Translations under genes and position numbers: made by a program
Source: a virus
Length of the DNA stretch: 36,409 nucleotides
Virus record (IMG/VR): IMGVR_UViG_3300017783_000079
Coordinates: 1 to 36,409 of that record
Direction: 5' to 3' (one strand)
Part shown: positions 5,339 through 25,400 of the stretch, piece after piece
Layout: every line of letters starts with the position of its first letter
Position numbering within the stretch: position 1 is the first letter of the stretch
Notes under the pieces: generated by a model
The model's input: only the letters and a program-made list of their open reading frames with translations
Databases searched by the model: none
What the model was told of the DNA's origin: nothing

Positions 5339-5488
5339 ATGGCTAAAATGAAAGGTGCAGGTTTGTTCAAAACCGGTTATATTCCCGCTTCTCCTAAAAT
5401 GACGCGGCAGGGACGTAGTACAAATACTAAAATTTCTGCAACTAGTCGTAATGGTAAACAAAAAGCGTATAGGGGTCAGGGTAAATGA
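5339..5488 (+). CDS. Small highly basic protein, unknown (49 aa)
   Basis: A 49-aa protein starting MAKMKGAGLFKTGY, dominated by Lys, Arg, Gly, Ser and Thr with almost no acidic residues. It looks unstructured and able to bind nucleic acid or an acidic partner, but I recognise no family. The ATG at 5339 was chosen over an in-frame TTG at 5306, because 5309-5314 is the -10 box of the promoter and a TTG start at 5306 could not be on that transcript. The stop overlaps the next ATG as ATGA at 5485-5488, so it is probably translationally coupled to the 217-aa gene. Confidence 0.6.
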   Translation: MAKMKGAGLFKTGYIPASPKMTRQGRSTNTKISATSRNGKQKAYRGQGK

Positions 5489-6138
5489 GTCTAGTCGTCA
5501 ATTTACCAGCAAAGAAAGTATATGTAAGAAAAGAATATCTTACTGATCATCAGACTGGATTTGGCGAATTTGTTGAGGGGGTATGGGTATCAGCAAAGTC
5601 AATACCTGGACGTGCTTTTTATTTTGAGACTTATCTTCCCGAATATGGGGCAATGTATGATAAGTTACCAATTAGTGCGTTCTTGGACCGCCCAGAGACC
5701 CCTGAACTCGATCTAGACCTCCCTAACCTACAATTTTGGAATTGTATGGATTATGGAATTGTAGCAATTCAAAAGCAATTTATTGCCTCAATGGACTTTG
5801 AACTACAAACACGTAACTTTGGTTCAATGCATGGTGAATATTTGTTTACTTTAGACAATTTTCATTGTGATATTGACTCAATTGACACTAATGTAAGCGA
5901 AGTTCCTGATGAACATAAGTCGCATAATTGTGTTTTATTGGAAAATGGGCAGTTTGCGTTATATCCAAATAATAGAATGAGAATTTATGATCTTTCTATT
6001 ACGCCAGAGACTCCAAAAGTTCCTGATTTTAAAGTATCAACCAAGTATTATCAAGTCGAAAACGGTACAAAATGGGGTCGTTTAGGCCAAACTGATGAAT
6101 ATTTTTGGCAAACTGAGTCAGAATCTAAAAATAAATAA
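5485..6138 (+). CDS. Conserved T4-like marine phage protein, unknown function (217 aa)
   Basis: A 217-aa soluble protein without signal peptide or membrane segment. It begins MSLVVNLPAKKVYV and contains strongly patterned stretches such as FYFETYLPEYGAMYDKLPIS (residues 46-65), a Leu/Asp/Pro run near 70-82, and a Tyr/Trp-rich C-terminal part (KWGRLGQTDEYFWQT). I recognise the style from conserved hypothetical proteins of T4-like marine phages but know no function. It overlaps the 49-aa basic gene by four bases and both lie behind the sigma70-type promoter at 5286-5314. Its context between the PAAR gene and gene 25 suggests either a tail-assembly helper or a non-virion gene inserted into the block. 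Base composition is less AT-rich than the giant genes downstream. Confidence 0.75.
   Translation: MSLVVNLPAKKVYVRKEYLTDHQTGFGEFVEGVWVSAKSIPGRAFYFETYLPEYGAMYDKLPISAFLDRPETPELDLDLPNLQFWNCMDYGIVAIQKQFIASMDFELQTRNFGSMHGEYLFTLDNFHCDIDSIDTNVSEVPDEHKSHNCVLLENGQFALYPNNRMRIYDLSITPETPKVPDFKVSTKYYQVENGTKWGRLGQTDEYFWQTESESKNK
6130..6137 (+). promoter_or_regulatory. Late-promoter-like box AATAAATA
   Basis: AATAAATA at 6130-6137 differs from the T4 late consensus TATAAATA only at the first base and overlaps the TAA stop (6136-6138) of the 217-aa gene. The next ATG is 26 bases past the box. In T4 such boxes are read by RNA polymerase carrying gp55 and the gp33/gp45 coactivators. AT-richness makes chance matches possible. 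Confidence 0.45.
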
Positions 6139-6358: not shown

Positions 6359-6811
6359 ATGTCTCAATACCTTGGTTCTATAGCAAATAAAAGATCTTTA
6401 GTATCTGATCATCTAGGAAAAATTTCTAGATCGTTTAAGGATATTAGCTTTGACTTTGATTCTATAAATCCCCTCACCAAAGATATTGTAGTTTTAAAAA
6501 ATGAAGAAGCGATAAAACAGTCAGTAAAAAATTTAATACTGACTAAAGTTAATGAAAGACCTTTTAATCCTACAATAGGAACTGATACAACTTCATACTT
6601 ATTTGAACTACACACTAAAGTATCTGCAAATGCTTTAATTGAAGAAATTGAATCAGTATTAAATAATTATGAACCAAGAATTACTTTAGAAACCATAGAA
6701 ATTGATGCAGACTATAGTTCAAATGGGTTTAAAGTTTTTATAGAATATTTAATAACTGGACTTCCCGGAGAAGCTCAGAATTTATCATTTGTCCTAGTTA
6801 GAGAAAGTTAA
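6359..6811 (+). CDS. gp25: Baseplate wedge protein gp25
   Basis: A 150-aa homologue of T4 gp25 (132 aa), the sheath-initiating wedge protein at the inner baseplate. It shares the phage gp25 / type VI secretion TssE fold, sometimes called lysozyme-like although it is not an enzyme. Typical features are the FxxINPLTKDIVVLKNEEAI entry strand and helix (residues 33-54), the LILTKVNERPFNPTIG segment (60-75), and the family Glu-Pro-Arg motif in NYEPRITL near residue 101. Gene 6 starts three bases after the stop. gp25 and gp6 are adjacent partners in contractile wedges, so gene order supports the call. A purine-rich AGGTAGG stretch at 6338-6344 may act as an upstream ribosome site. Confidence 0.93.
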   Translation: MSQYLGSIANKRSLVSDHLGKISRSFKDISFDFDSINPLTKDIVVLKNEEAIKQSVKNLILTKVNERPFNPTIGTDTTSYLFELHTKVSANALIEEIESVLNNYEPRITLETIEIDADYSSNGFKVFIEYLITGLPGEAQNLSFVLVRES

Positions 6812-6814
6812 TTA

Positions 6815-8899
6815 ATGGAATTACCAGTAGTATCTGCTTTAGAATTTGAACAGGTAAAAAGTTCTATAAAAAATTATATAAAACTCCAAGACGGGTTTAC
6901 CGATTATGATTTTGAGGGGTCTAACCTTTCAATGCTTATCGATGTTTTGGCATATAATACGTTATATACATCGTATAATGTAAATATGGCGGCTAATGAG
7001 TTAAATCTGGATACTGCAGTACTTAGAGATAATGTAGTTTCTATTGCAAAAAGGTTAGGATATAGATCAAATTCATATACATCCTCAAGAATACGTATAA
7101 ATTTAACTATTGATAATGTTTCATCATATGATTTGGTTACTATAAAATCTGGTCAAGCATTAACCGGATCAATTAACAATAGAAATTATACTTTTTGCAA
7201 TAGGGAAGACTTACAACTTACCGTAAGAGGTAAAAGTAGTATTACATTTTATAATGTTGATTTGTATGAAGGTACAGAATATTCTATACTTTATACTGTA
7301 GATACTACTAATGAGCACCAAAGATTTTTTATACCAAATAATTATGTCGATTCAGAGACAATAAGAGCATCTGTAATTTCAGATCCAACAAATACAGTTG
7401 AAAAAGAATATATAAAAAAGGAAACTATTGTTAATGTTAAAAATTCTGATGAAATTTTCTTTGTAGAAGAAGTACAAGATCAAAAATATGAAGTTGTCTT
7501 TGGTGACGATGTAATTGGAAGAAAGTTGAGAGATGGTGAAGTAGTAAAATTAACATACTTAGTAACATCTGGTAGTCAAGCAAATGGCATAAAAGACCAA
7601 CTCAAGTTAGCTGGTACTTTTGTTGGTTCAACAGAACAAAATAATACAACATTAAACTATACAAATATTAGTTTTAGTCTTGTTACTGAAAAATCTGATG
7701 GTGGTTCTGAGTATGAAAGTATAAAGTCTATTAAATATAGAGCACCAAGATACTATGCATCTCAAGAAAGAGCTGTTACTCTTTCAGATTATGAATCAAT
7801 TATTCAACAAATTTATCCAAATGCAGATTTAGTTAAAGTTGTGGGTGGAGAAACTTTATCACCACCACAATATGGTAAAATTTTTATTTCAATTAAACCA
7901 AAAGTTGGTGAGACTGTAAGTTATAGTGAAAAACAAAGAATTATAAGAGAATTAGATAAGTATAAAGTAGGATCTGTAGAAGTTATTATATCAGATCCTG
8001 TAGGAATTAAAATTGTTGCTAGACCAACTATTGTATTTGATGAGTCAAAAACTAGAAATAGAGAATTTGAATTAATATCTCTAGTAAATGGTTCAATTGA
8101 AGATTATATTAATAAAATTGATTTTAATAATTTTGGAGGAGAGTATTCTGATTTAGAGGTAAGATGCACAATTAAAAGTTTAGATGATTCAATAAAATAT
8201 GTCGGAATACCAATTTATCTTAGTCAACTAGTTGATCTTGTACCAGATGCAGAAAAACTTTATGAAGTTGATTTTTTCACAAAATTAAATACAGATACTT
8301 CCGGTGATTATTATGTGCTATCTGATCCGTTTTGTCATAAAAATATACTAGAACCCGTATATTTGGCTTCTTATGCTGGTTGCGTCGGTGATAATAAAAT
8401 ATACTTGATTACTAGTAGTGGAGAAGTAGTTAAGGAAGTGGGGGAAGTTGATCCAGATACCGGTAAAATGAACTTTACATTAAAATGCTGTCAAGATGAA
8501 CCAATAAATATTATGGTAATTCCCGAAATATTAGATATTTTATTTGGTCCTGATGTTGTCCCAGAATACGTTATTGATGATATTATTACTATTGACGATG
8601 GTCTTATATTAGACCCTGGTGATTTGGGTAAAACTTTAGATCCAGATATTCCTATTTTACCTTCTTTGAAAGACTTACCAGTTGATCCTGGCGATGGTGA
8701 TCCTGGTGGTGATCCTGGTGGTGATCCTGGTACACCAGATGGTGTTACATTAACACCTACTCCAGGTGGGCTTAAACCAACACTTCCATTAATACCAACT
8801 CCATTACCTCCTGATAGTGATAATGAAGGTAGTGATCCAAATAATTATACAGATATAGAAGACTTTACCCCAGAAACAAATCCATATTCCTGCTCATGA
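6815..8899 (+). CDS. gp6: Baseplate wedge protein gp6
   Basis: A 694-aa homologue of T4 gp6 (660 aa), which dimerises to form the continuous inner ring of the baseplate and clamps gp25 and gp7. The N-terminus is typical: residues 1-95 include FEGSNLSMLIDVLAYNT, the NMAANELNLDTA helix and the VSIAKRLGY segment. A baseplate-J-like core continues with KYRAPRYYASQERAVT (around residue 308) and a dimerisation region to about 590. The last about 95 residues are unlike T4: an acidic, Pro/Gly-rich tail with DPGGDPGG repeats and a Cys near the C-terminus. The stop overlaps the ATG of the giant gene (ATGA, 8896-8899), implying translational coupling to the gp7-position protein, its expected partner. 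Confidence 0.93.
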   Translation: MELPVVSALEFEQVKSSIKNYIKLQDGFTDYDFEGSNLSMLIDVLAYNTLYTSYNVNMAANELNLDTAVLRDNVVSIAKRLGYRSNSYTSSRIRINLTIDNVSSYDLVTIKSGQALTGSINNRNYTFCNREDLQLTVRGKSSITFYNVDLYEGTEYSILYTVDTTNEHQRFFIPNNYVDSETIRASVISDPTNTVEKEYIKKETIVNVKNSDEIFFVEEVQDQKYEVVFGDDVIGRKLRDGEVVKLTYLVTSGSQANGIKDQLKLAGTFVGSTEQNNTTLNYTNISFSLVTEKSDGGSEYESIKSIKYRAPRYYASQERAVTLSDYESIIQQIYPNADLVKVVGGETLSPPQYGKIFISIKPKVGETVSYSEKQRIIRELDKYKVGSVEVIISDPVGIKIVARPTIVFDESKTRNREFELISLVNGSIEDYINKIDFNNFGGEYSDLEVRCTIKSLDDSIKYVGIPIYLSQLVDLVPDAEKLYEVDFFTKLNTDTSGDYYVLSDPFCHKNILEPVYLASYAGCVGDNKIYLITSSGEVVKEVGEVDPDTGKMNFTLKCCQDEPINIMVIPEILDILFGPDVVPEYVIDDIITIDDGLILDPGDLGKTLDPDIPILPSLKDLPVDPGDGDPGGDPGGDPGTPDGVTLTPTPGGLKPTLPLIPTPLPPDSDNEGSDPNNYTDIEDFTPETNPYSCS
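8684..8734 (+). repeat. Short tandem repeat encoding Asp-Pro-Gly-Gly units in gp6
   Basis: GATCCTGG recurs at 8684, 8699, 8711 and 8723, a 12-15-base period that keeps the gp6 frame and encodes DPGD/DPGG units. It sits in the low-complexity C-terminal tail. Such short repeats can change copy number by slippage without breaking the gene. Confidence 0.7.
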
Positions 8900-11800
8900 A
8901 ATACTTAGAAGAAAAGACTTCAAATGTATCAATTCTAGTTGAGAATCAGTTTCCTAGTTTTGTTAGAGATACTAATGAAAAATTTATAAATTTTATTTCT
9001 TCTTATTACGAATCACAAGAAGGAAAGTATCAACCACTGGATATTGCTTCAAATTTAATTGATTACTATAATATTGGATATTATAGACCTTCTAGGTTAG
9101 TAAAAAATACAAAATTAATAGAAAGTAGTAATTTATCGGATTCAGTTAAAACTATTACTGTAGAGAGTACAACAGGTTTTCCTGAAACTAATGGTTACAT
9201 AAAAATAGATGATGAAATAATTTTTTATACAAGTAAAACAAAAACACAATTTTTGGAATGTGAGAGAGGTGTTTCTGCTCTTGTCTTAGATAGTGTACCA
9301 AAATCAAATATATTTTTAACAAATTCTACCGCTGCTGAACATAAAAATTTAGTTGATGTAAAAAATATTGCATTTGATTATGCAAATGAGTTTTTAAATA
9401 GAATTAAATCTGAATTATCTCCGTTAATTCCTGAAGTTTTAGATGAATCTCTTGATTTAGCAGCATTTATTAAAAATATTAAGTCTTTCTATTCTTCAAA
9501 GGGAAGTTTAAATAGTCATAAAATTTTATTCAGAATTTTATTTAATGATAGAAAATTTAATATTAAATTAAAAAAAAGAGGTAGTGGTGCAAAATTAAAA
9601 ATCAATAGTTCTGCACCAAAAATTGTTCAATCCGGTATAGGAATTATAGATGGTGGTGTTGGATATGATAATAGAAAAGATGGTGCCAATTTAGTTAATG
9701 CACCAATAGTAGAAATATTTGGTAGTGGTGTAGGATCAATTGATCCTACTACAAAAACTAGAAAAAATAAAACAGCAATTGTTGAAGTGACAGATATAGA
9801 TTCTACTGGATCTATAACTGCAGTTTCTGTTATTGATTCAGGTGAGTCATATAGAGGTGCTATAACTGCTAGAGTTAGACCAACTAGTTTTGGTGAAGAT
9901 GAGATAGTACAAAATTTATCTGGAACTGGGTCTGGTAGGGTAGAATATTATGATTCTTATACTGATGAAGTAATTTTATATGATGTTGTTGGTTATTTTC
10001 TACCAAATGAAGAAATTTATTCTAATGACGGTGAAAAAGCAAGAGCTTTTATTTCACAATCATACATTAGTACATCCTCAAATAGAAATGGTCTGAGAAT
10101 TGATGGTGAAGAACTACAAATTGAATTTCCTAAAGACTACACATTTAAAACTTCCAATTCAACATTTACTGATAGAAAAATCATTAAGTGTAAATTAATA
10201 AGTGGTTATTTTTTACAAAATGATATATTGCCAGATACAATTTCTTTAATACAAAATAGAGATTCTATTTTTGGTGTTCCTGGTGTTGTTGTTGAAGTAG
10301 ATAATAGTATTTCTTTATCAGAAAACATTTATGAATTTGATATAACTACAAATACTGATATTAATAAAATATTTTTACCTCCATCTACAGTAATTACAAA
10401 ACAGATTACCGGAATTAATTCATCAACAACTAACTTTGTTTTGACTGTAGATGAAGTAACTAGATTTCCAGTTACTAATGGTATCGTATCAATTAATGGA
10501 AATGAAATATCTTATAAGTATAGAAGCGCACATCAATTATTTGATTGTTCTTACTCTGGTGGTAATACCATTGATTTTAATGTTAAAGATGAAGTATTAT
10601 CAGTTGCTAGACTAAAAGAAAATATAACATGGACATCTAATACAAATTTTAATACTAATGATTATGTATTCTATAATGATAATTTATATTTAGCAAAAAA
10701 TAGTGGTACTTCCGGCACAACTGCTCCGTCCCATATAAATGGAACTGAATATGATGGTACTATTGTTAATGCTAATCCAATTCTTTGGGAATATGCTGGA
10801 AAAAATAAATTAGATCATACATTTTACATTGATTATAATAATAGTGCAATTGTAAATCCAAAATTTCAATTATTAGGTTTACCTGGTGATATTGTAATAC
10901 AAGATGGAGGATCATTACATAATGAATCCACATATTCATTTGCGAGATTTGATAGTCCTAATGTACAGGCTTATTCTTTTACTACGGCAGAAATTTCTGA
11001 CAGATTATCTGCATTATTAGCATCAAATAATAATAGAACTAGAGATTCAATTATAGAAACATCTAACAATACTACATTAGAAATTGATAATATTAAATCA
11101 TTAAATTCATATCAATCATTAACTGGATTTTCTAGTCAATATGACTTTGAAGAGTATATCTATGTTTCTGGATCTGGCATTCCTAGGTGGTGGGAGGACA
11201 TAGTTGATTTTAACACTACATTAAGTGTCAATGATAAGAAAAAAGTTGCATTTACAAATCAAAGATTATTAACTAGGTGGAATAAGAGTGGTTTACTATC
11301 TGAGACCCAAGCAGTTGGTGTTGGAAGAAAAAATAAAAAATTAGTAGGGTTAAATATTGATGCTGTACAGATAAATTCATATAAAGGTAATACAGTATCA
11401 TATGGTCAGATTAAAAATTTTTATATAGGTGATGGTGGAGATTATCCAGTTTTATATACTGAAGATAGTAATGGTTTTGGATATTTACTAAATGAAAGTG
11501 GACTTCCAAAGTTTAGGTTAACCGATTCATTAGTTGTAGGTAATGGAAAAAAATTAGTAAAAATTTCTTCATCGTTAAAATCTATAGACTTTAATAAATT
11601 GGCGATTGCTTGGTCACCAACATCTAACTTATCAGGATTTAGTAAAAAACCAGAAATTGATGTAGTTAATAATAATCCGCAGATTTCAGTAATATTTGAT
11701 GGTTATACCGGATTAAATATTACAACTAAAGTTTTAACAAAGAATAATCATGGACTTGAAACTGCATTAAAGGTAACTTTAAAAATTCTCACAGGTGGAG

Positions 11801-14800
11801 AATTTTTTGCTGTATTGAGAAATAATACTGAATATTTTGTTAGAGTAATTGATGACGATACGTTCACTCTTCATAGAACAAAAGCTGAATCTCTTTTAAA
11901 TTCAAATCCTTTATCATTATCTTATCTTACTCTCAGTGGTACATCTACTCCTGCTGTATCCAATCCTAAGTTTAATTTTATATCGGAACAATTAAATCCA
12001 CCATATTTTAGAGAAGCAAAATTAGATTTAAGTTATAAAAATGGAATTATTGATGGTATTGTCATTAGAGATTCTGGCGAAGGTTATGTTTCTCTACCCA
12101 CAATTAGAATTTCTGGTGGTGGTAAATTGGGTGGAGTAGATGTTCCATTTAGTTTAAATTCTGATAGAATTGTTGATTTTTCAGGCCCTCTAGTTTCTTA
12201 TTATAATTTTCATAAAGATAATTATAATGAACTACAAATTCGTTCAGCATCAAATATAAACGATGGGTTTAAGAAAATTTCAAAAATATTTGAAATTGCT
12301 CCTTTAGTAAAAGTTGAATTTGGAGATGGAGCAAAAGCAATTGCTTATACCTCAAATGGATCTATAACTTCATTATCGTTAATTAACGGAGGTAGTGGTT
12401 ATAATTTCCCACCAAAAGTAGTTATCACGGGAACTGGTAAAGATGCAGTTATTAATACTATTATTTCCGGCGGCGAAGTAACTGGATTTATTATTGTCAA
12501 TGGTGGTAGTGAATATACAATATCTCCAAATATAGAAATTAAATCATCCGAATTGAAGAAATCAATTGTTTCGTCTAAACTAAATGAATGGACATTTAAT
12601 TTAGTTAGACAATTAAAAAAACTCGATAGAATTGATTCTTACGGTGGTTATGTTTACGATGACTCCGATGCTATTCCACCAAAATCAATTAATGAAAAAA
12701 ACTTTAGATTAATTGATTATAGAAATGATTTTCCTAGAGATTTAGATGAAAATCAATATTATTTACTACAAAATACTAAAAAACTTTCAGCTAAATATTT
12801 AAAAGAAAAAGCTTCTAGTGCTGTTAAAGATGCTGCTGAAACAGCTTTGGGTAAACTAGTATCAAATATGACGGATGATGAGGTACTGCAATATTTTATT
12901 ATGCATACTATACCTATTGGTATTTCTTATGATAGTGTTCCTACTTATTGTAGTGGATATGTTTTAGCGGAGAGAAATAAACCAGTAATAACAGATCCTG
13001 GTGATGCTAATTATCAATCTCAATTTACTACGGTCAAATCTAGGTATAGATTAAAATATATCGAAGTTTCGTCTGGAACTGTTGGTGCAATTGAACTGAG
13101 TACAACATCTGGCACAAAATATGTAACTTTAAGTAGAATAGGAGGACCTTCAATAAGTGATTACCCAATTGGAACATTTATTGAAGATTATGAATATGTA
13201 GAAGGTACTAATGATAATGATTTAGATGAACATAATGGAAGATTTACTGTAACTCCAGAATTTCCGACCGGAAGATATTGTTATTTTACAACATCAGAAT
13301 CATATGATCCTATTACTAATGCTTTAGTAGATTCAGCTTTAGCTGAAAATGATAATATAGGGTTTAATGGATTTCCATATTTTGTTGGAGATACTTTTGC
13401 ATCAACTTATGATGATTATATGAATAATAGGTGTAGAAGGAATGATAAAATTCCATCTGTATTTACTAGATCATTTGAAAAAGATATTGATCCAATTATT
13501 AATGACGGAATTGAAATTTTTCCTGGTCTTGATCACAATGATGAATACCCCAAGGAAAATATCAACACAGATAAAACTATTGCTAAAACTACTGCAATTT
13601 CTCCTGGCAGTGTGGATTCGGTTATTATTGAATCTAAAGGTGATAATTATCGTGTTGGTGATAGATTAGTTATTGATAATAATTTAACTAGTGGTTCTGG
13701 ATTTGCTGCTATAGTTTCTAGAGTTAGTGGTAAAAAAATAACTAATATCAGTGCATCAGCTGATGAGCTGTCGTCTACATTTACTACAGACGTAAATCAT
13801 AATTTATCAGTAAATGATTTCGTTTATTTTGACTACATTCAGGGACCCGATGAAATTGAAATTAATTTATATGATAATTATCTAAGCTTTTTTGTTAGTG
13901 AGTTTAGAATTATTGAAATAGATGATATAATTTTAGATGCCCCTAGTTCAAATTTAGACATATATAAAAACTTTGAGTTTTATGAAATTAATGTTAATTT
14001 TAAATACACGTATAAATTAAATATTCCAGCTGGAGCAGATTTTCTACTGACATATGATATTGAAAAAACCAATGAATTTTTTACTCTTGAAAAATCTCCC
14101 ACAAATACTATCCTTATAAATGCATTAAACATTCCAAATAGATTATATTTGCATATTGGTACAAGAATATATCAGATTAATAAAACTAGAGATTATTTTG
14201 GTATTCAAAAAATAATATCAACAACACCAAAAACTTTTACTATTAAAACTTTAGAATCATCAACAGGATATGAAACAGTAAATATTTCATATACTGCAAA
14301 ATCTTATGGTGCTATTGGACCAATTGAAGAAATTTCTATAACAAGTTCTGGTAATGGATATAAAAAATTACCTACCGTTTCAGGAATCTTTAAAAAAGGT
14401 ACAATTGATACTGAAGCTGGAAATGGAAAAGCCATAGTTCAAACAAACTCCAATACAATAGGAAAGATTAAAAAATTATCTTATAGTTCAGTTGGATCTT
14501 CAATTACCTCCAACAAAAACGTAAATCATTATTTAAATATTTCATCTACAGCTAAAGTTATTAATAATTTTGAAATTTATGATATTGAAATTATTAATGG
14601 TGGAGAAAATTATGATAATGTAGTTACCATTTTAGTAAATGGTTTAAATAACTCAACAGTTTTAGAGGCAACTGTTTATTTGGGCACCATCACATCAATA
14701 AACATTATTGATGGCGGTATGAATTTTACTGAAGAACCAATTTTAACAGTAAGTTCAACATATGGTAGTGGTGCAGAATTAAAACCAAAAATAAGAAGAA

Positions 14801-17800
14801 AACAGTTATTCCCCAATCAAATTTTAACTGGAGAAATAAATTCTTTATTATTTCCAGTAAAAATTAATATTGATGTTGTTGCATTTGATACAAGATCATC
14901 AACTTTAGAATTTAATGAAAATTCTGGTCAATTTAAAAATGGTGATTTTATTTACGCAGATGGTAAAAAATATGGAAAAATTGAAAGTATTAGGAGATCA
15001 AAAGCATTTTCTAAAGTAAGATCTTATTCAGACTTGCAAATTGATTCCCCAGATATATCTGGAAGAACTAGTGAATCTTTACAGAAAATAACTGATAGTA
15101 ATTATTATCAAGATTGGTCTTACAGTTTAACTTCGTCTAGAGATACTAAAGAATGGAAATATGAACAAGACATAAACACTCACCCAGCTGGATTTAAACA
15201 ATTTGGCAAAAAACTTATTGAAAGAAGAAAATCTTTCTTTAAAAATCCACTCGATGTGTTCAAGAGTAGTGTAATTTTTGCTACTAAAATTTCCAGGAGT
15301 CTTGACCTATCATTAAAATTATCTCCATGTGGCAAACAAAGAATTTTCTTACAAGATGTTTCTGGGTTTACTGTTGGTAGTTATATTGTAGGTGCTACAT
15401 CAGAAGCAATTGGAAGAATTAAGAGCATTACTGAATCTTCTTTAATTGTTGAAAGTTATAATAATAAATTATTCTTATTAGATGAAATAGTAGTACAGGT
15501 AAGTAAAGAGTTTGCATTTGGTATATCTGATGCTACAAATAAATCATTTAATTTCTGGAATGGTATTTTTCAAGAACCAGGTGAAAGTTATGAAGTTTCA
15601 GAAAATCCCATTGCATATATTCCTCACTATATTGTTGATAACTCTGACGAGATTACTTTATATAATTTGGATATTCCATTTGTTAGATTAGATAATCAAG
15701 TTTTAAGTACAAATCAAACTTCATTCTCATTTAATTTAGAAAATGCTTCATATCCAATAACAACTTCTATTTTAGATGAATTTATTATTTCTATTGGTGG
15801 TGTAATTCAAAATCCCGCAAATTTAACTGTTTTCGCTAATGCTGTAGTAACAAGTCAATCAGTTAGTAATGATTCTAATGTAATAGCTGTAAGACATACT
15901 AATCTAAGTACATTGACATTTACTGATACTGGAACTGCTGAAACTACATATGAAATTAATCAAACACCATCAAGTAATTGCAAATTACTTATATTCCGTG
16001 TAGGCATTTCTCAAACACATTTATTAACTGACTATTCGGTTTCTGGTAATATAGTTACTTTTTCAGAATCTATTCCATCTAATGAATTATTTGGGTGGTA
16101 CTATAATGGTACAATTAATTGTCAAATAATTGATGGATCAACTATTAATCAAAATAAAATAATAAAACAACTTCCATGCGAAAAAACTACATTTTTAGAA
16201 AAAATTGAGTCTAATTCCAAAAAGAAACCAGAATCACTTTATGAAATAAGAAAAGAAACAATTGATGGAACTATTGTTCCAGTAAGTTCTACTAAAGTTG
16301 AAGGTTTTGATACTAAGTTTACGTATACAAGTCCTAGGCATTCTGATAGTTATGTTGAGGTAATGGATGCTATATCATTTAACGGGACTAAGATATCTTT
16401 CAAATTAAAAACTAATACTGAAAATTACATTCCAAGTAATGGAGAAGAGAGTTTACTTGTTTATATTGATAATGATATTTTAGATCACGATCAATATTCT
16501 GTTTCTGGTAATACAATCAATTTTTCTCAATCTTATGATTCCACTAAAAAATGCACAATACTTGATTTTGTGAGTGGATATTCTTCAAATACCAATAATG
16601 AAAATTGTGCAATTATTGATAGGTTAAATGTTGTACAAAATGGATCAAGGACAACATTTAACCTTTCTGATCGTGGTGTGCCTAAGTATGTCCGAAATGT
16701 TGGTGACATATTTAAAATTAAAAATAATAAACTAGAGAGACCAGATTCACAGACACAATCTGTGAATGATAATAAAATTACTTTTGTTACATCCCCAATA
16801 AATTCAGATGATATAAATTTAATCTATTTTAATAGACAACTACAACCAGTAAGTACTAATAATGTACTGTTTGATGATTTGTATTGTTTTGATGGAGTAA
16901 GAACTTCTTTCCCATTTGCTATCGATGGTGCGATATCTAATTATACATCAACTACTAATTTGCACTTGTATATGTTAAGAAATGGTGTGATGCAAAAACC
17001 TGGTGTAGATTATGTTCTTGCTCAAAATAGTAACACTGGAACTTGGCAAATTAATTTCTCTGAACCACCAACTGCAGATGAAGAAGGAAAAATATTTGCA
17101 TGGTTCTCGTATAATAATTTGACAAAAAATCAGAGACTTGATTTTGGAAATTATGTAAACGATATTAGAACGAAATTTGCACTCACTAGAAATTATCAAG
17201 CACTTCCTATACCTAACACCAATCATATATTAGTTTTTAGAAATGGAGTTCATCAAGAACTTACCACTACTTATACCATTTTAAATAATTCAAATAATAC
17301 TAGTATTATTTTTGATACCGCACCACAAACTACTGAAGAAATATTTATTTTTAATATCGTAAATTCTGATGTATTGACCAAAACTGGTTCTAGTTGTAAT
17401 CAAGTTAATTCAAATACAATTTCCGCTAGTTTTTCAAGTCTAACAACCAATAACTTTATTATATTTGTAAATGGTGTTAAACAAAATCCAAATAGTGCAT
17501 ATACAGTAACTTCAGCTTCTTCATTATACACATTTAATTTTACTGATGATGTATCATTGTCAACTGATAAAGTTTCAATCTATGCATATTATGGAAGTGC
17601 TCCTACTATGTTTAACCAGTGTGATGAAATTACTGTATCAAATACTTCAACTCTCACATATAACATAACTTCTGGTGGATTAGCTACTACTCCATATACA
17701 GATTCTGGAATCTTAGTTGCAATTGATGGTGTTGTTCAGGAGTATGGTATTGCTTACACAACATCTGGTTCTACCATAACATTTACACTAAATGCAACTC

Positions 17801-20781
17801 TTGAACTTGGTGATAAGATTGATATGATTACTATTGGTGGTTCTACAAACGAAGTTGATTATATTGATGATAATTATAACAAGATTGCACAAACTACATC
17901 TTATGGTACTACAATTAAACCAAACAGGTATAAGTTAGGATTTGTAAGTTTAAGTGATCCTACGGATAAGTATGAACCATATAATCCATCTGTTGGATTT
18001 GATCCAGCAGATATTATGGTAATACGAAATGGTGTTGTTCAAAATCCAACTGAAGACTATATTATCGGACATGGTTATATTGAATTTACAACTAATGTGA
18101 CAGAATTAGAAAATGTATACCTATTATATGTTCATAGTAGAGATGAATTATCATTTACTCAAACTGGTTCTACATCTAATACAAAAACTTATCAATTATC
18201 TAATACACTAAGTTCTATATTTGCTTCGGAAGATGATATTCTTGTTTTTGCTGATGGTGTTCCAAGATTCAAACGTAGAGGAGATTTTATAGTAACAAAT
18301 GATGATACGATTACTTTAACCCATACAGATGGTTTAAATCCAACTCAAGTTTTCATTACTAAGTATCCAACATTATTACTATTAGATCCATTTGAAAATT
18401 GTCCAAATGGCACTAGAACCATATTTAATCTTTATCAGAACGAAAATAATTGGAATGTTAATGAAGTTGATGAAAATGCTGATGTTCTTATTTCCAAAAA
18501 TGGCATTATATTGGATCCTGGTACAGAATATAATTTAATTTCTAATAACAGACAAGTTGAATTTACCACTCCTCCCACATTATCAGATACAATTTTCTTT
18601 GTGAAAATGAATGGTAATGAATTAAAGAGTTTAACAAATGTATCTGGAAATACTTATAATCTTGTCGATACATATTCGTCAAATTATGATAAAGAAGGAT
18701 TAGTTATATTTTCAAACAATGTGTGGAAATTTGCAGAAACAGGTGGGTTTACCTGGAATGATAATAATACTATCACATTAGGCACTACACATACATCTGG
18801 TACATTATTTGCAATTAAATTTAATGGGGTATTCAATCTATTAGATGAAATACACACTCCATTTGATGGTTCGAGGACCATGTTTAACATGTTTGATGGA
18901 GAAGAAAACTTTATGCCACCAGGTACAGTTTCTGACGACTCCACACCAGATCCTACAAGTTTGCTAGTTACAAAGAATGGTGGTTTACTAGAACCAGGTT
19001 ATCAATATACACTAACTGGAGATAATGAAAGTCAAATTCAATTTACTAGTGCTCCGGTTTCTAGTGATGTTATTTCTATAAGATCTGTTGGATCCTTTGA
19101 TAAGTTAGACACCATTGCAAGTGGTTCTGGAACTGTATTCCCACTAACTAAGTCAAGTAATGAGTATTATCCAAATGCTCATATAGAGAGACCCAGAGAA
19201 CTTGAAAATCAAATAATTGTTATTAAAGATGGAGAGGTTTTAAGTCCATTATATGATTTTTATATTGATAATAATAATATAGTTTTCGTGAATAGTGTTT
19301 CAGGATCAAGACTATCATTCTTGGATTTCCGTGGAACTGCTTCTGATGTAAAAGTCTTCAGTAGACTTAATCAAGTATCTGTCGGAGATGAACTTTATAT
19401 CTCTGGTGAAAAATTGTCAAGAACTGTTACAAACATAATTTCACCAACTATATTAGAAACAGCATCATATACAGATGATACTCCTTCAGGATTTGTTGCC
19501 ACTACAAATTATTCTGATGGAATAGTTACTGGATTTACAATGACAAATGGTGGTGAATATTATGAGAATCCTGTTGTAATTCGCACAAAAGGAACTGGTT
19601 CTAGTGCAAAAGCTGTTGCTCGTGTTAAAACTCTTATTGGAGATAACGTTGTTGATGCATCGTCAATAGAACTTCAATATCCTGGTAGGAATGTTTATAA
19701 TGATCAGAATGCAGTTGCAACAGTTTATGCGACAACATATAAAAAACAACCACTACATAAGTCTGAAGTTAGAAAAGCTACAAAATTACTCCAAAATATT
19801 AACAATTCTGTAGAAACATTTATTGTTGGTAATGGTACTGGTTTGATATCAAATCCGCCATCAGTTACTGTCACTTCTTCTAGTGGATCTGGATCACAGT
19901 TTAAAGTTTATGTATCTGGTGGAGAAATAAGAAAGATTGATATTCTGGATGGTGGTAGTGGATATGATGATCGTGACTTTACCGTAGAAATTACTGGTGG
20001 TGGAGGTACTGGTTGTGTTCTTGAAGGTACATTAAACAGTGGAGGTACAATTACTGGCATTATTATTCAAAACCCCGGTGTTGGTTATGATACTAATAAA
20101 GTGTTCTTCTATAAAGAAGTTTCTGGGGTAGTTAACTCTGAAGGTGTAGAATATACATATGTGACCGAAAATTCAATATCTACAGTTGGTTTTAACACAC
20201 AAAATTCTGATGGAATTTATGAGTTTGGTAATGGAACAGCAATTGTTAATACTGGAACCGGAACTGGGGAAACAGGAGGTTTTGATATTGGTACTCACTT
20301 AAGATTTGGTGATAATAGTGGAACTAGATTTGTTACTTTTAATCCAATTAATTCTAGTGGAGTTAATACTGTTCGTGTTAATGCCGTTAGGGGCAATTCT
20401 TCTAATGGTGGAGAAACACCTGACATTGTTGGTGATGAAGATCTCAGGATACAATATCAATCTACAGCTTCTGGTGCTGCTCCAGATAATACTTCTTGGG
20501 TAGATCTTGGTATTGTAATTGATGCAGTTCCGAATGGATCTGGTTCTGGTGTTTTAGATAATTATGATTTCCCTCTACCATCAGCTGTTCAAGGTGAACA
20601 TGTGTATTTCAGATTAATTCAAGATAGTAATAGTGGAGCAAACTATGACCACTATGGTATTTTAAATATTTCTTTCTTGGGATATCCAACATACACTTTG
20701 GATGGTTGCACCAGAGGTGCTGTAGGAACTGCAAAATCACATTCAACATCTGATCTTGTATATTTCGACAATTATCTCTGA
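8896..20781 (+). CDS. Giant multidomain baseplate protein in gp7 position (3961 aa)
   Basis: A 3961-aa protein filling a third of the window, between genes 6 and 8 where T4 has gp7 (1032 aa). Cyanophages often carry a large 'VrlC-like' protein here. Residues 1-65 (ENQFPSFVRDTNEKF...) and about 165-225 (KGSLNSHKILFRILF) form a conserved tail-protein head, split by an EIIFYxxx..ECERG cassette (about 77-135). GxGY-type beta cassettes recur near 248-325, 1052-1075, 1154-1220, 1570-1610, 1800-1960 and 3540-3740. An HGL cassette is near 935-1020, a YHYH-like segment (DEHNGRF..PYFVG) near 1440-1500, and a YYQDWSY..HPAGFKQFGK motif near 2065-2110. About twelve NGVxQxP modules fill 2290-3470. The end carries a lectin- or discoidin-like stretch and a final CTRGAVGT cassette. 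There is no frameshift and no signal peptide. The role as wedge initiator is inferred from position. Confidence 0.85.
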   Translation: MKYLEEKTSNVSILVENQFPSFVRDTNEKFINFISSYYESQEGKYQPLDIASNLIDYYNIGYYRPSRLVKNTKLIESSNLSDSVKTITVESTTGFPETNGYIKIDDEIIFYTSKTKTQFLECERGVSALVLDSVPKSNIFLTNSTAAEHKNLVDVKNIAFDYANEFLNRIKSELSPLIPEVLDESLDLAAFIKNIKSFYSSKGSLNSHKILFRILFNDRKFNIKLKKRGSGAKLKINSSAPKIVQSGIGIIDGGVGYDNRKDGANLVNAPIVEIFGSGVGSIDPTTKTRKNKTAIVEVTDIDSTGSITAVSVIDSGESYRGAITARVRPTSFGEDEIVQNLSGTGSGRVEYYDSYTDEVILYDVVGYFLPNEEIYSNDGEKARAFISQSYISTSSNRNGLRIDGEELQIEFPKDYTFKTSNSTFTDRKIIKCKLISGYFLQNDILPDTISLIQNRDSIFGVPGVVVEVDNSISLSENIYEFDITTNTDINKIFLPPSTVITKQITGINSSTTNFVLTVDEVTRFPVTNGIVSINGNEISYKYRSAHQLFDCSYSGGNTIDFNVKDEVLSVARLKENITWTSNTNFNTNDYVFYNDNLYLAKNSGTSGTTAPSHINGTEYDGTIVNANPILWEYAGKNKLDHTFYIDYNNSAIVNPKFQLLGLPGDIVIQDGGSLHNESTYSFARFDSPNVQAYSFTTAEISDRLSALLASNNNRTRDSIIETSNNTTLEIDNIKSLNSYQSLTGFSSQYDFEEYIYVSGSGIPRWWEDIVDFNTTLSVNDKKKVAFTNQRLLTRWNKSGLLSETQAVGVGRKNKKLVGLNIDAVQINSYKGNTVSYGQIKNFYIGDGGDYPVLYTEDSNGFGYLLNESGLPKFRLTDSLVVGNGKKLVKISSSLKSIDFNKLAIAWSPTSNLSGFSKKPEIDVVNNNPQISVIFDGYTGLNITTKVLTKNNHGLETALKVTLKILTGGEFFAVLRNNTEYFVRVIDDDTFTLHRTKAESLLNSNPLSLSYLTLSGTSTPAVSNPKFNFISEQLNPPYFREAKLDLSYKNGIIDGIVIRDSGEGYVSLPTIRISGGGKLGGVDVPFSLNSDRIVDFSGPLVSYYNFHKDNYNELQIRSASNINDGFKKISKIFEIAPLVKVEFGDGAKAIAYTSNGSITSLSLINGGSGYNFPPKVVITGTGKDAVINTIISGGEVTGFIIVNGGSEYTISPNIEIKSSELKKSIVSSKLNEWTFNLVRQLKKLDRIDSYGGYVYDDSDAIPPKSINEKNFRLIDYRNDFPRDLDENQYYLLQNTKKLSAKYLKEKASSAVKDAAETALGKLVSNMTDDEVLQYFIMHTIPIGISYDSVPTYCSGYVLAERNKPVITDPGDANYQSQFTTVKSRYRLKYIEVSSGTVGAIELSTTSGTKYVTLSRIGGPSISDYPIGTFIEDYEYVEGTNDNDLDEHNGRFTVTPEFPTGRYCYFTTSESYDPITNALVDSALAENDNIGFNGFPYFVGDTFASTYDDYMNNRCRRNDKIPSVFTRSFEKDIDPIINDGIEIFPGLDHNDEYPKENINTDKTIAKTTAISPGSVDSVIIESKGDNYRVGDRLVIDNNLTSGSGFAAIVSRVSGKKITNISASADELSSTFTTDVNHNLSVNDFVYFDYIQGPDEIEINLYDNYLSFFVSEFRIIEIDDIILDAPSSNLDIYKNFEFYEINVNFKYTYKLNIPAGADFLLTYDIEKTNEFFTLEKSPTNTILINALNIPNRLYLHIGTRIYQINKTRDYFGIQKIISTTPKTFTIKTLESSTGYETVNISYTAKSYGAIGPIEEISITSSGNGYKKLPTVSGIFKKGTIDTEAGNGKAIVQTNSNTIGKIKKLSYSSVGSSITSNKNVNHYLNISSTAKVINNFEIYDIEIINGGENYDNVVTILVNGLNNSTVLEATVYLGTITSINIIDGGMNFTEEPILTVSSTYGSGAELKPKIRRKQLFPNQILTGEINSLLFPVKINIDVVAFDTRSSTLEFNENSGQFKNGDFIYADGKKYGKIESIRRSKAFSKVRSYSDLQIDSPDISGRTSESLQKITDSNYYQDWSYSLTSSRDTKEWKYEQDINTHPAGFKQFGKKLIERRKSFFKNPLDVFKSSVIFATKISRSLDLSLKLSPCGKQRIFLQDVSGFTVGSYIVGATSEAIGRIKSITESSLIVESYNNKLFLLDEIVVQVSKEFAFGISDATNKSFNFWNGIFQEPGESYEVSENPIAYIPHYIVDNSDEITLYNLDIPFVRLDNQVLSTNQTSFSFNLENASYPITTSILDEFIISIGGVIQNPANLTVFANAVVTSQSVSNDSNVIAVRHTNLSTLTFTDTGTAETTYEINQTPSSNCKLLIFRVGISQTHLLTDYSVSGNIVTFSESIPSNELFGWYYNGTINCQIIDGSTINQNKIIKQLPCEKTTFLEKIESNSKKKPESLYEIRKETIDGTIVPVSSTKVEGFDTKFTYTSPRHSDSYVEVMDAISFNGTKISFKLKTNTENYIPSNGEESLLVYIDNDILDHDQYSVSGNTINFSQSYDSTKKCTILDFVSGYSSNTNNENCAIIDRLNVVQNGSRTTFNLSDRGVPKYVRNVGDIFKIKNNKLERPDSQTQSVNDNKITFVTSPINSDDINLIYFNRQLQPVSTNNVLFDDLYCFDGVRTSFPFAIDGAISNYTSTTNLHLYMLRNGVMQKPGVDYVLAQNSNTGTWQINFSEPPTADEEGKIFAWFSYNNLTKNQRLDFGNYVNDIRTKFALTRNYQALPIPNTNHILVFRNGVHQELTTTYTILNNSNNTSIIFDTAPQTTEEIFIFNIVNSDVLTKTGSSCNQVNSNTISASFSSLTTNNFIIFVNGVKQNPNSAYTVTSASSLYTFNFTDDVSLSTDKVSIYAYYGSAPTMFNQCDEITVSNTSTLTYNITSGGLATTPYTDSGILVAIDGVVQEYGIAYTTSGSTITFTLNATLELGDKIDMITIGGSTNEVDYIDDNYNKIAQTTSYGTTIKPNRYKLGFVSLSDPTDKYEPYNPSVGFDPADIMVIRNGVVQNPTEDYIIGHGYIEFTTNVTELENVYLLYVHSRDELSFTQTGSTSNTKTYQLSNTLSSIFASEDDILVFADGVPRFKRRGDFIVTNDDTITLTHTDGLNPTQVFITKYPTLLLLDPFENCPNGTRTIFNLYQNENNWNVNEVDENADVLISKNGIILDPGTEYNLISNNRQVEFTTPPTLSDTIFFVKMNGNELKSLTNVSGNTYNLVDTYSSNYDKEGLVIFSNNVWKFAETGGFTWNDNNTITLGTTHTSGTLFAIKFNGVFNLLDEIHTPFDGSRTMFNMFDGEENFMPPGTVSDDSTPDPTSLLVTKNGGLLEPGYQYTLTGDNESQIQFTSAPVSSDVISIRSVGSFDKLDTIASGSGTVFPLTKSSNEYYPNAHIERPRELENQIIVIKDGEVLSPLYDFYIDNNNIVFVNSVSGSRLSFLDFRGTASDVKVFSRLNQVSVGDELYISGEKLSRTVTNIISPTILETASYTDDTPSGFVATTNYSDGIVTGFTMTNGGEYYENPVVIRTKGTGSSAKAVARVKTLIGDNVVDASSIELQYPGRNVYNDQNAVATVYATTYKKQPLHKSEVRKATKLLQNINNSVETFIVGNGTGLISNPPSVTVTSSSGSGSQFKVYVSGGEIRKIDILDGGSGYDDRDFTVEITGGGGTGCVLEGTLNSGGTITGIIIQNPGVGYDTNKVFFYKEVSGVVNSEGVEYTYVTENSISTVGFNTQNSDGIYEFGNGTAIVNTGTGTGETGGFDIGTHLRFGDNSGTRFVTFNPINSSGVNTVRVNAVRGNSSNGGETPDIVGDEDLRIQYQSTASGAAPDNTSWVDLGIVIDAVPNGSGSGVLDNYDFPLPSAVQGEHVYFRLIQDSNSGANYDHYGILNISFLGYPTYTLDGCTRGAVGTAKSHSTSDLVYFDNYL
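15764..19290 (+). repeat. About twelve degenerate NGVxQxP protein modules in the giant gene
   Basis: Protein-level tandem modules, each about 75-100 residues in the densest part, with a core of strand + (R/V/K)NGVxQxP + xxxYTxSGxTITF + DxIxI. Clear cores lie near residues 2293, 2520, 2694 (RNGVMQKPGVDY), 2782 (RNGVHQ), 2857 (VNGVKQNPNSAY), 2942 (IDGVVQ), 3042 (RNGVVQNPTEDY), 3118, 3200 (KNGIILDPGTEY), 3273, 3359 (KNGGLLEPGYQY) and 3444. They have diverged too far for DNA-level repeats. The module type resembles tail-fibre beta-sandwich domains. Confidence 0.7.
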
Positions 20782-20815: not shown

Positions 20816-22381
20816 ATGCCTTCACTAGTCACTGATAATTTTAGGGTTTTTGCAGCGGAACAATTTATGGAATCTCTGGAAGAACCCTATGGCGCTTCAG
20901 ATATTCCAGTTGATGACAGCGCAGCAGCCGCATTAAAATATAGAAGCAAAGTTTATCTCTTTACGGGGAGATCACAAGCTTGGACCTTAGAAAGATATAA
21001 TGGAGTTAGTGGAATAAGCGAATTTGAACCACCAGCACCATTTGATTCATTCAATGATATGAATGAAATTTATGATGATATGATTTCTATGAAGAGAGTT
21101 AATAGAACAGATCTTTCACAAGTAATTAGAAGAAATACTTGGAAGGGAGGTGTTAAGTATGATATGTACAAAAATAATTACACACCAGATAATTTATCTT
21201 TAAACGGACAATCTAGTTTATACGATTCTCAATTTTATGTTATAAACAGTAATTATCAAGTATATAAGTGCATTTACAATGGTATTAGTCCATCTTTCCC
21301 AGATGCTAGAGAATCTACTACAGAACCAACAGGTACTTCTACCAGTATTATTGAAAGCTCTAGTGATGGATATAGATGGAAGTATATGTATACGATTAAT
21401 ATTTCAGATTATATTAGATTTGTTTCCAGTGATTTTATACCAGTAAAATCTGATAGTTCAGTTATTTCTGCTGCAGTTGAAGGATCAATTGAACAATTAG
21501 TAATTACTAATAGAGGTAGTAGTTTAAGTGCGAATACTTATTATTGTCCCATTATTGGTGATGGTACTACTGATGCAATTGCAAGAGTTGTAGTTCCAGC
21601 ATCTGGTTCAAACGCTAGTAAAATTGATAACGTTGCATTAGAAGTAGTTGGTGCTGGTTATACCAGAGGAACAGTTCTTCTTGGAGAAGCTTATACTAGT
21701 GTTTCAAATGCAGTTAGTAGAACTGGTTCTTCTTCTACATTAAATGGATCAGTCGAAGTAGTAATTTCACCTCCAGGTGGTCATGGTTCAAATCCTGCTT
21801 TGGAGTTGGGTGGATATAGAGTAATGATTAATAAATCTCTAGAATTCCTAGATGGCGATGGTGATATTCCAGTTGATTCCCAGTTCAGAAGATATGGATT
21901 GGTTGCAGATCCACAAACACCAAGTAATCAAGATTTAGTTGCAGATACAGCAACTGCTTGTTTATCATTAAAATTCCCAACTAGTGGATCTGGTTCTCCT
22001 ACTGGTGATTTTGAACCAGGTAAAATTATAACCCAAACTGCAACTGGTGCTGCTGGTAGAGTAATTCATTGGGATTCTGTTACTAAAGTATTAAAGTATT
22101 ATCAAAACGAATTTATTGATGAGGATAATCAAACAGGTGAAAATAAGTATAAGTTAGTACCATTTAGTGGCGCTAATGCAATTTCTTCCGTAACCACACA
22201 GGGAACCGTTACAGGTACTCCTAGTGGAACAGGATCATATTTTGGTGTTACATTTACTAGTGGATATGCTACTCCAGAGGTTAAAAAGAATAGTGGTAAC
22301 GTAATTTATGTTGAAAACAGAAAAGCAGTAAATAGATCAAATGACCAAGTTGAAGATATCAAATTGGTTGTAGAATTCTAA
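20816..22381 (+). CDS. gp8: Baseplate wedge protein gp8
   Basis: A 521-aa homologue of T4 gp8 (334 aa), a dimeric wedge protein contacting gp7 and gp10. Conserved signs: KVYLFTGRSQAWT (residues about 45-57, compare T4 ITFGRSEPW), PPAPFDSFNDMNEIYDDM (72-89), VIRRNTWKGG (103-112), YKCIYNGISP, GYRWKYMYTI (near 185) and the closing VIYVENRKAVNR...DIKLVVEF, equivalent to the last strand pair of T4 gp8. It is about 190 residues longer than T4 gp8. Residues about 218-280 resemble the GxGYT cassette (VVGAGYTRG) and residues about 395-460 the GxxxGAAGRVxxWD cassette, both shared with other proteins in this window and apparently inserted into the gp8 fold. Confidence 0.9.
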   Translation: MPSLVTDNFRVFAAEQFMESLEEPYGASDIPVDDSAAAALKYRSKVYLFTGRSQAWTLERYNGVSGISEFEPPAPFDSFNDMNEIYDDMISMKRVNRTDLSQVIRRNTWKGGVKYDMYKNNYTPDNLSLNGQSSLYDSQFYVINSNYQVYKCIYNGISPSFPDARESTTEPTGTSTSIIESSSDGYRWKYMYTINISDYIRFVSSDFIPVKSDSSVISAAVEGSIEQLVITNRGSSLSANTYYCPIIGDGTTDAIARVVVPASGSNASKIDNVALEVVGAGYTRGTVLLGEAYTSVSNAVSRTGSSSTLNGSVEVVISPPGGHGSNPALELGGYRVMINKSLEFLDGDGDIPVDSQFRRYGLVADPQTPSNQDLVADTATACLSLKFPTSGSGSPTGDFEPGKIITQTATGAAGRVIHWDSVTKVLKYYQNEFIDEDNQTGENKYKLVPFSGANAISSVTTQGTVTGTPSGTGSYFGVTFTSGYATPEVKKNSGNVIYVENRKAVNRSNDQVEDIKLVVEF

Positions 22382-22422: not shown

Positions 22423-25400
22423 ATGCAGGAAACAAATCTTAGAATATCTCCATACTTTGATGATTTTGATAGTTCAAAAAATTATCAAAGGGTATTATTT
22501 AAACCAGGATATTCTGTACAAACTAGAGAACTTAACACTCTACAATCCATACTACAAAATCAAGTAGAAAAATTTGGTCAGCACATTTTTAAAGATGGTT
22601 CTCTCGTCATACCTGGTAATGTAAACTATGATATGTCTGCTAGAGCAGTATTAATTCAACCACTAATTAATGGAATTACTGTTGAATCATATTTGGAAAC
22701 GTTAAAAGGAAAAATTTTAACAGGGGCTTTTTCTGGAGTTAAAGCAGAAGTTACAGGTACTTTATCAGCATTAATGTCTGAAAAAGATACAACAACATTA
22801 TATGTTGCGTATAATTATGGTGGTATTGAAGAGAATAATGAACAACTAAAAGAATTTAAAAATAATGAAATTCTTTTAGATGATCAAGGAGCACCTGTAG
22901 CTGTTACAACTGTACAAAATTCAACATCATATATTGGTTCTACTGTAAATATTAATTCTGGTGTTTATTTTATTAGAGGATTTTTTGTAGAGGTTTTACC
23001 ACAAAAAATTATACTAGAACAATATAATACAAAACCAACATATAAAGTAGGACTTCAAATTACAGAAAATGTTGTCAGTTCTGAGGAAGATACTACATTA
23101 TATGATAATTCACTGGGTTCTACAAATTTTGCTTCTCCTGGTGCCGATAGATTAAAATTTAACCTAGAATTAGTAAAACAAAATTTATTAATAACTGAAA
23201 ATTCTAATTTTATCGAGTTGATGAGATTTGAAGATGGTGTAATAACTCAACAGGCTGATGCATATCAATCTGCATATTCTCAACTAGAAAAGAATTTAGC
23301 TAGAAGAACATATAGTAATCATGGTAGTTTTACAACACAACCATATAATATCAAAATTAGAGAAGCATTAAATGATGGTGTAAATGGTGGTTTATATTTT
23401 CCCAATGAAATTTCTTATGATGGAAGAACAGTTGTAGATGAAATTCCTCAAGGTGCTTCTATATCCAATGTTGGTGCTAATGAATATACAGATGGTATTA
23501 CACAATATATTTTAGGAAAAGATTACTATGCTATTGAATTATCAGAAGGTAAAGCATATGTTGAAGGGTTTGAAGTTTTAAATGAAAGAAAACAATATAC
23601 TTTAGTCCGAAAACCAAGAAAAACTCAATCAATTAATAATCAAGGTACTGTATTACAGATTGGTTCTTATGTTAAGATAGCAAAAAATTCTAGTAATTTA
23701 CCTGAAATTTCAGGTACTGTGAAATTAGGTGATACTCTAATACTAGAAGACGCTGATGGTACTTCAATTGGTGCTGCAAAAGCTGTAGGATTAGTAAATT
23801 CTGAAAGATTATACATTAACAGTCTTTCATTATTTGAGGATTTAACTCTTAGTGCAGTTGGTGGTATAGATCAAGGTGATTTTATTACTGGTAATACATC
23901 TGGAGCTACTGGATTTGTTGATTCAATAGTTACTAACACAAAATTAGTACGATTAATACAGATTACTGGTAATTTTATATCTGGAGAGTCTATTTCTTCT
24001 AGTAATGCAGGTTTAGCTGCTGGTGTTGATATCACTGGCGTTAAAAAATATTTAGTTGAAAATGTGAGAAAATTTGAAAAGACTGGATCTGGTGGATTTT
24101 CATGTACAGTTGAGTTAGATTCTCTGCCAATAACTGGTTCTTCCTTTATAGTTACATCAGGTAATAAATTAACTGGTATCAATACTGCATTCAAATTTGA
24201 ATTATCTGAAAAATCTAAAATACAAATTGGTGGTCAAACTGCTAAAGAAGTTGATAGTATTACTTCCGATGGAACTGAAATTACTCTATCAGGGTCAGTT
24301 ATAAATGGCACTTATTATAGTGTACGTAAACAAATTTGTAAATTGTATTCATCAGAAACCGGATTTACTAGTAAAATTTCATTAAACCCAGTTAAATCTG
24401 TTGGCGAGAATTTTCCATATGTAAATAATAGTTTGATTGTTGAAACAAAAACTGTAGGTGCTGGAGGACAATTTGAGATTCAAACCGCAACAAATACAGT
24501 AATTGACACAAGTAGTATTACTGTTGCTACGGCATCAACATCAGTATCTTTTGATGCTTCTTTAACATCCAGCAATTCAGCTATAATTTCAAATACAGGA
24601 TTATCTGCCGGTGCGTCAGTAACTGCATATTACAGTGTAAGATTTCCAAATCCCACGGTAAGAAAGAAAACAAAACAATCTTATAAATTTTTATCAGTAA
24701 AATTATCTAAATCTAATGCTAATGATAATTATGGCACTAGATTTACAGATAAAGAAATTTCTTTAAAATACGCAGATGTAATTAAAGTACATGCTATACA
24801 TCAAGCTTTAAATGCTAGTGACGATAAGGAGAAATTATTTGATTCTGTTATATTAAATGACTCTTCTCAAATTAGTGAGGGAGATATCTTAACACTTGGT
24901 ACGGTTAGGGCAAGAGTTATATCTAAAGTTAGTGCAAATAAAGTTTATATTAAATATCTTTCAACTTCAAGATTTCAAACTGGACAAAATTTAGCAATTT
25001 CAATTAATGTTATCGCAACAAATAAAATTGATGGTATTTTTATTAAACAATCTAATTATGGTAAATATGAAGATATAACAGATGATTTTAAATTTGTTAG
25101 AAATGATACTAATGATTTTTATAGAATTTCAAAATTAGTTAGAAAATCATCTGCAGCTGAACCTGCTCAAAAAATTGTTGTTGTATTTGATTACTTCAAA
25201 CACGAAAATTTAGAAAATGATTTTTATTCGGTAGAGTCATATGGCGATTTAGAATATTCAGATATTCCTTTGTCATATAAGTATGCATCAATGGCTGATA
25301 TAATTGATTTTAGATACTATACAGAATCATCTAGTGTGGGTGCTACTTCTGGTTCTATTGATAGTCCATTTACAGAAACTGTTTCTGCTTTTAATATTTA

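Follow-up and report, generated by a model that had tools for sequence, protein, structure and literature searches.

The locus and the giant open reading frame

The window analysed here is the whole 36,409-nucleotide stretch of IMG/VR virus record IMGVR_UViG_3300017783_000079. Its baseplate genes lie on one strand in the order gp25, gp6, giant gene, gp8, which places the giant protein in the slot of gp7:

6359..6811, + strand: gp25 sheath initiator (phrog_261, PF04965)
6815..8899, + strand: gp6 wedge protein (phrog_219, PF21379)
8896..20781, + strand: 3961-aa gp7-type baseplate wedge protein (phrog_2885/4406/701), with colinear ORFs in contigs L008 and L009 and dN/dS of 0.28-0.30
20816..22381, + strand: gp8 wedge protein (phrog_438, PF09215)
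22423..28872, + strand: VrlC-position protein of 2149 aa (the position is annotated VrlC in relatives), without gp7 anchors

As the preliminary description had stated, the giant gene is one uninterrupted frame, with 3961 codons running from ATG to stop and zero internal stops, and its product is almost four times the size of T4 gp7 (1032 aa). Full-length colinear counterparts, both open from stop to stop, are present in IMG/VR contigs L008 (3787 aa) and L009 (3775 aa), and a further related contig, L012, also carries a full-length colinear giant ORF. The L008 and window proteins are 81% identical across their first 585 residues, conservation with the related contigs spans the entire chain, and dN/dS for the whole gene is 0.30 against L008 and 0.28 against L009. 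Because the ORFs of L008 and L009 are colinear over their full length and these ratios are so low, the giant ORF is neither a chance frame nor a fused artefact; the gene is real, intact and under purifying selection.

Two features could nevertheless be taken as signs of an assembly or gene-calling artefact that had produced a fused or chimeric ORF: a 174-aa insert which is missing in the relatives compared and differs from the gene in GC content, and the giant gene of contig L106, which consists of two separate ORFs. The insert, however, is in frame at both of its junctions and the family C-terminus picks up again after it, dN/dS is far under 1 throughout the gene, and three contigs carry the same full-length arrangement; we consider an artefact exceedingly improbable. 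The two L106 ORFs overlap (7962-11588, 1209 aa, and 11431-15879, 1483 aa), and their separation could be either a sequencing frameshift or a genuine split. A search at the DNA level found no close phage record for the window, NCBIfam and PADLOC scans returned nothing, and psbA was not found in the 11 clade contigs in which it was sought, all of which are fragments.

The size of the protein, which the preliminary description had placed among the larger phage proteins, is as described, but its rarity was overstated. A tblastn search with the head of the giant matched 377 phage records, nearly all of them from Synechococcus and Prochlorococcus phages, and the protein in the same slot measures 4454 aa in P-HM2, 6932 in S-SSM4, 5195 in P-SSM2, 3048 in S-PM2, 3895 in S-SRM01, 7022 in S-MbCM6 and 1937 in S-CREM2, while complete same-slot ORFs in the IMG/VR relatives run to about 2500-3960 aa. 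Giant size is therefore ordinary for cyanophage-like T4 phages, and across the group this slot normally holds proteins of 1937-7022 aa.

The head is matched by PHROG 2885 and 4406, and together with the colinear conserved blocks this places the protein in the cyanophage gp7 "baseplate wedge initiator" family (P-HM2, P-SSM2, S-SM2, S-SRM01; PHROG 2885/4406/701), with which it shares gene order, the head, a second anchor to T4 gp7 and a similar size class (3895-5195 aa in P-HM2, P-SSM2 and S-SRM01). The head is only ~34-40% identical to those of the family, however, and the giant has 12 cassettes of the type termed B below, whereas members outside its clade have 0-4. It is thus a divergent addition to a known family, with a lineage-specific expansion of cassettes. 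Public naming of the locus is inconsistent: the 7022-aa gp7-family protein of S-MbCM6 (50779-71847; L089 1-12777) is annotated "gp8 baseplate wedge protein", and the genes that follow it are labelled gp10 and gp7.

Two anchors to T4 gp7

The comparison with T4 gp7 depends on the following features of the giant:

8896..9573, + strand: head, residues 1-226, comprising N-terminal helices, a type I cassette (about 71-150) and the KGT block (alignment, PHROG matches)
9343..9573, + strand: KGT block, residues ~150-226, first anchor, to T4 gp7 ~727-761 (profile-profile and HMM comparison)
13021..13299, + strand: YHYH domain (PF14240), residues 1376-1468
14923..15222, + strand: HPAGF block, residues 2010-2109, second anchor, to T4 gp7 ~818-894 (profile-profile and HMM comparison)

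T4 gp7 itself matches phrog_2885, the family of the giant, at T4 residues 730-758. When a head profile of 30 sequences was compared by hhalign with a profile of seven Straboviridae-type gp7s, head residues 191-225 aligned with T4 gp7 727-761 (E 6.6e-6, 35 columns), and the HPAGF block, whose consensus reads ..DSxYYQDYSYxIKSxTxIxxWRxLIKxTTHPAGFKLFGE.., aligned with T4 gp7 818-894 (E 6.2e-5), colinear with the first anchor. An HMM of the full head is a poor test of gp7 relationship, because the type I cassette which it contains also matches other baseplate-region proteins, and the test was therefore rerun with residues ~150-228 only. The resulting KGT-block HMM recovered seven of seven Straboviridae gp7s at E 1e-8 to 5e-6, against E 0.7 for the best of 259 decoy ORFs; with the HPAGF-block HMM the seven gp7s outranked all of the same number of decoys except one partial ORF belonging to the giant's own family. 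Since the seven gp7s are interrelated, each block must be counted as one event and not as seven, and the colinear order of the two blocks is the stronger point. The anchors are short, but the similarity is beyond chance and falls in the same order as in T4 gp7.

Structural searches contributed little for the head: its model has low confidence (pLDDT 60, with helices at residues 10-58 and 158-216), a PDB fold search with that model gave nothing usable, a PDB search with the head profile gave no matches, and a PDB sequence search with the whole giant gave matches at chance level only.

According to one published account, cyano- and pelagimyophages lack gp7 and VrlC has apparently replaced it (PMC7029224). 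Were this so, a fibre- or adhesin-like protein would have taken over the gp7 locus and the VrlC-like protein downstream of gp8 would do the work of gp7, and the large share of the giant's mass that consists of fibre- and spike-like cassettes would fit such a replacement. It is the giant, however, which bears both gp7 anchors in the T4 order, while neither was found in the window's VrlC-position protein, which matches the head HMM only weakly and contains part of the type I cassette that these proteins share. We regard the replacement as very unlikely, and the anchors, as far as sequence comparison can speak, contradict the published absence. The giant is most likely the genuine gp7 orthologue of a T4-type, cyanophage-like myovirus, a wedge anchor carrying a long periphery whose modules can be swapped, and the evidence for a gp7 core in these giants can be put to the test at exactly named residues.

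The giant and T4 gp7 (phrog_964) share the two colinear core blocks and the place between gp6 and gp8, but they differ greatly in anatomy. The conserved tail-protein head of the preliminary description is indeed homologous to gp7; what it matches, however, is the C-terminal third of T4 gp7 and not the N-terminus. The giant starts at a point equivalent to about residue 640 of T4 gp7, so that the first ~640 residues of the T4 protein lack a counterpart, and the core blocks, which are ~100 residues apart in T4 gp7, are about 1,800 apart in the giant, so that ~1,750 extra residues lie between them and a further ~1,850 lie beyond the second. In S-CREM2 gp122 (1937 aa) both anchors are present and the protein ends about 15 residues past the second, which identifies the residues of the giant past ~2110 as a C-terminal extension. 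Insertions separate the segments that are conserved and colinear throughout the family (404-555, 1134-1256, 1405-1473, 1556-1624, 1769-1870, 2006-2112 and 2917-2965).

The YHYH domain passes the Pfam score cut-off (52 bits vs 25), but the motif from which it takes its name reads YCYF, both histidines being gone; in 110 of the 127 family matches it reads YAYF, and the histidines have been lost throughout the family. The domain is dispensable, because it is among the roughly 1,000 residues missing from the shorter clade members L101-L103.

Beta cassettes and the insertion near the C-terminus

Self-comparison of the giant reveals three families of internal repeats, and over the HMM thresholds there are two type I cassettes, six GGxGY (A) cassettes and twelve B cassettes of ~75 residues, in keeping with the earlier claim of many inserted beta cassettes:

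9106..9345, + strand: type I cassette within the head, the loop of which holds a ~500-aa insertion in S-SSM4 (HMM)
10372..10557, + strand: second type I cassette, residues 493-554 (HMM)
12028..12549, + strand: A cassettes, residues 1045-1102 and 1141-1218 (HMM)
14560..14760, + strand: A cassette, residues 1889-1955 (HMM)
15697..19347, + strand: B-cassette array of 12 beta units resembling tailspike and adaptor domains, residues 2268-3484 (HMM, model, fold search)
19489..20100, + strand: C-terminal A cassettes, residues 3532-3596 and 3646-3735 (HMM)
20173..20694, + strand: 174-residue inserted module, residues 3760-3933, in the loop of a terminal type I-like cassette (alignment to relatives)

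The number of B cassettes varies widely. Against the 12 of the giant there are 9-19 in most related contigs with enough sequence and 6-8 in partial ones; some forty further members of the family have 3, and there are 4 in S-SSM4, 1 each in P-SSM2 and S-SRM01 and 0 in S-CREM2. A two-unit model of the B cassettes is confident (pLDDT 84, pTM 0.75) and all beta, and its best PDB match by Foldseek is the CBA120 tailspike TSP4 (E 1.5e-3, a match probability that is close to certainty, and a TM-score that is low across two units), cyanophage structural proteins being matched as well. The B profile matched a K1 capsule depolymerase (9k4a, E 3.4e-6) and a tail adaptor (7y22_e, E 4e-5) in the PDB, and Pfam scans of B-cassette pairs gave weak, scattered matches only. 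The likeness in sequence and fold to these three is a resemblance between domains and not proof of receptor binding; the matched domains belong to spikes, depolymerases or adaptors, while in the giant the cassettes form tandem arrays within a wedge protein.

The 174-residue module is missing from L008, L009, L012 and L101-L103, and its GC content (0.358, compared to 0.296 for the giant gene) is consistent with recent acquisition. Similar segments occur in three other phage proteins: a baseplate wedge component of S-H9-2, probably gp53 (69% identity), a 1411-aa baseplate protein of S-SCSM1 (40%) and the S-MbCM6 giant (33%). The module interrupts a type I-like cassette loop between "..EYTYVTEN" and "LDGCTRG..", and S-SSM4 has an insertion of about 500 residues in a loop of the same type, that of the head cassette. 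These two cases, few as they are, suggest that the type I cassette loop is an insertion-tolerant site. A wedge protein can evidently grow by modules, with blocks that are near each other in T4 pushed ~1,800 residues apart, cassette arrays expanding in one lineage and insertions recurring in one type of loop.

Cassettes of both the A and the I type are found in further baseplate-region proteins. The product of window positions 33506-34609 has two A cassettes resembling those of the giant, and the 1385-aa protein encoded at 862-5019, upstream of gp25, has a PHROG "major head protein" stretch and weakly matches the giant's head HMM, probably through the type I cassette. In S-PM2, the giant and gp8 are separated by a 176-aa virion structural protein with a type I cassette (S-PM2p082; L005 29142-29669), which may have split off from the C-terminal end of the giant.

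A probable wedge core and possible host contact

T4 has six copies of gp7, each a monomer whose domains are bound by gp10 and gp9, and gp8 interacts with gp10 as well as with gp7 and gp6 (PMC3004832). The gp17 protein of Vibrio phage XM1, a minimal gp7 orthologue of 242 aa, begins with core-bundle helices, and its C-terminus and a loop insertion hold the tail spikes (PMC10457771). Compared with this published description, the giant fits the same plan of N-terminal core helices, an insertion between core elements and a long C-terminal extension directed outward, by analogy, although XM1 gp17 binds separate tail spikes with short loops and the giant has giant modules built in. The N-terminal helices, the KGT block and the HPAGF block ~1,800 residues on would then constitute the wedge core, which would be expected to pack with two gp6 chains and gp25 in the manner of T4 (gp6)2-gp7 and XM1 (gp16)2-gp17, and the residues between and after the core blocks would leave this core outward as a string of inserted beta modules. 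With the T4 stoichiometry of about six copies, at ~430 kDa each by arithmetic, the periphery would amount to about 2.6 MDa; it may stand in for the separate N-terminal domains of T4 gp7, and would probably help to hold or present receptor-binding parts. A literature search found no cryo-EM paper on a cyanomyovirus baseplate. As to the mass spectrometry proposed earlier, published data place the S-CREM2 relative, gp122, in virions with 91 unique peptides (PMC10665884), and it is for this relative only that presence in virions can be affirmed.

The preliminary description favoured a host-contact or fibre-like scaffold, which is plausible. Hints of host contact come from the resemblance of the cassettes to tailspike and adaptor domains, from the swapped module near the C-terminus and from the S-PM2 homologue S-PM2d081, which gained non-synonymous mutations during coevolution with Synechococcus, an experiment in which many other virion genes mutated too (PMC9910659). 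The cassettes borne by a true gp7 core may instead be structural bulk, serving the lattice, spacing or stability of a large baseplate, with no contact to a host receptor. The presence of A and I cassettes in other baseplate-region proteins and the family-wide loss of the YHYH histidines agree with such a role; the variable copy number, the module swap and the S-PM2d081 changes fit host-driven selection instead, without proving it, and purely structural cassettes are possible, if somewhat doubtful. A bolder proposal is that in this lineage gp7 itself has turned into the receptor-presenting apparatus, a covalent, wedge-rooted arm in which 10-19 tandem tailspike/adaptor-type cassettes offer docking or binding sites and the terminal type I-like loop is the site at which binding modules are swapped; this we consider speculative and rather unlikely. 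For the host-contact reading that we find plausible, the modules of the giant provide concrete regions in which to seek such functions in abundant marine phages.

Two further genes of the window may be recorded. Between the 1385-aa protein and gp25 lies a gene for a 217-aa protein (5485-6138) that matches phrog_3704, labelled ferredoxin. At 29748-32468 is encoded a 906-aa protein with tandem repeats (..NNLDVDGDVNIDGGD..) and PHROG matches to short tail fibre and structural proteins; opposite this repeat-rich, fibre-like gene are two long antisense ORFs on the - strand (30476-31309 and 31310-31639), which are probably a by-product of the repeats.
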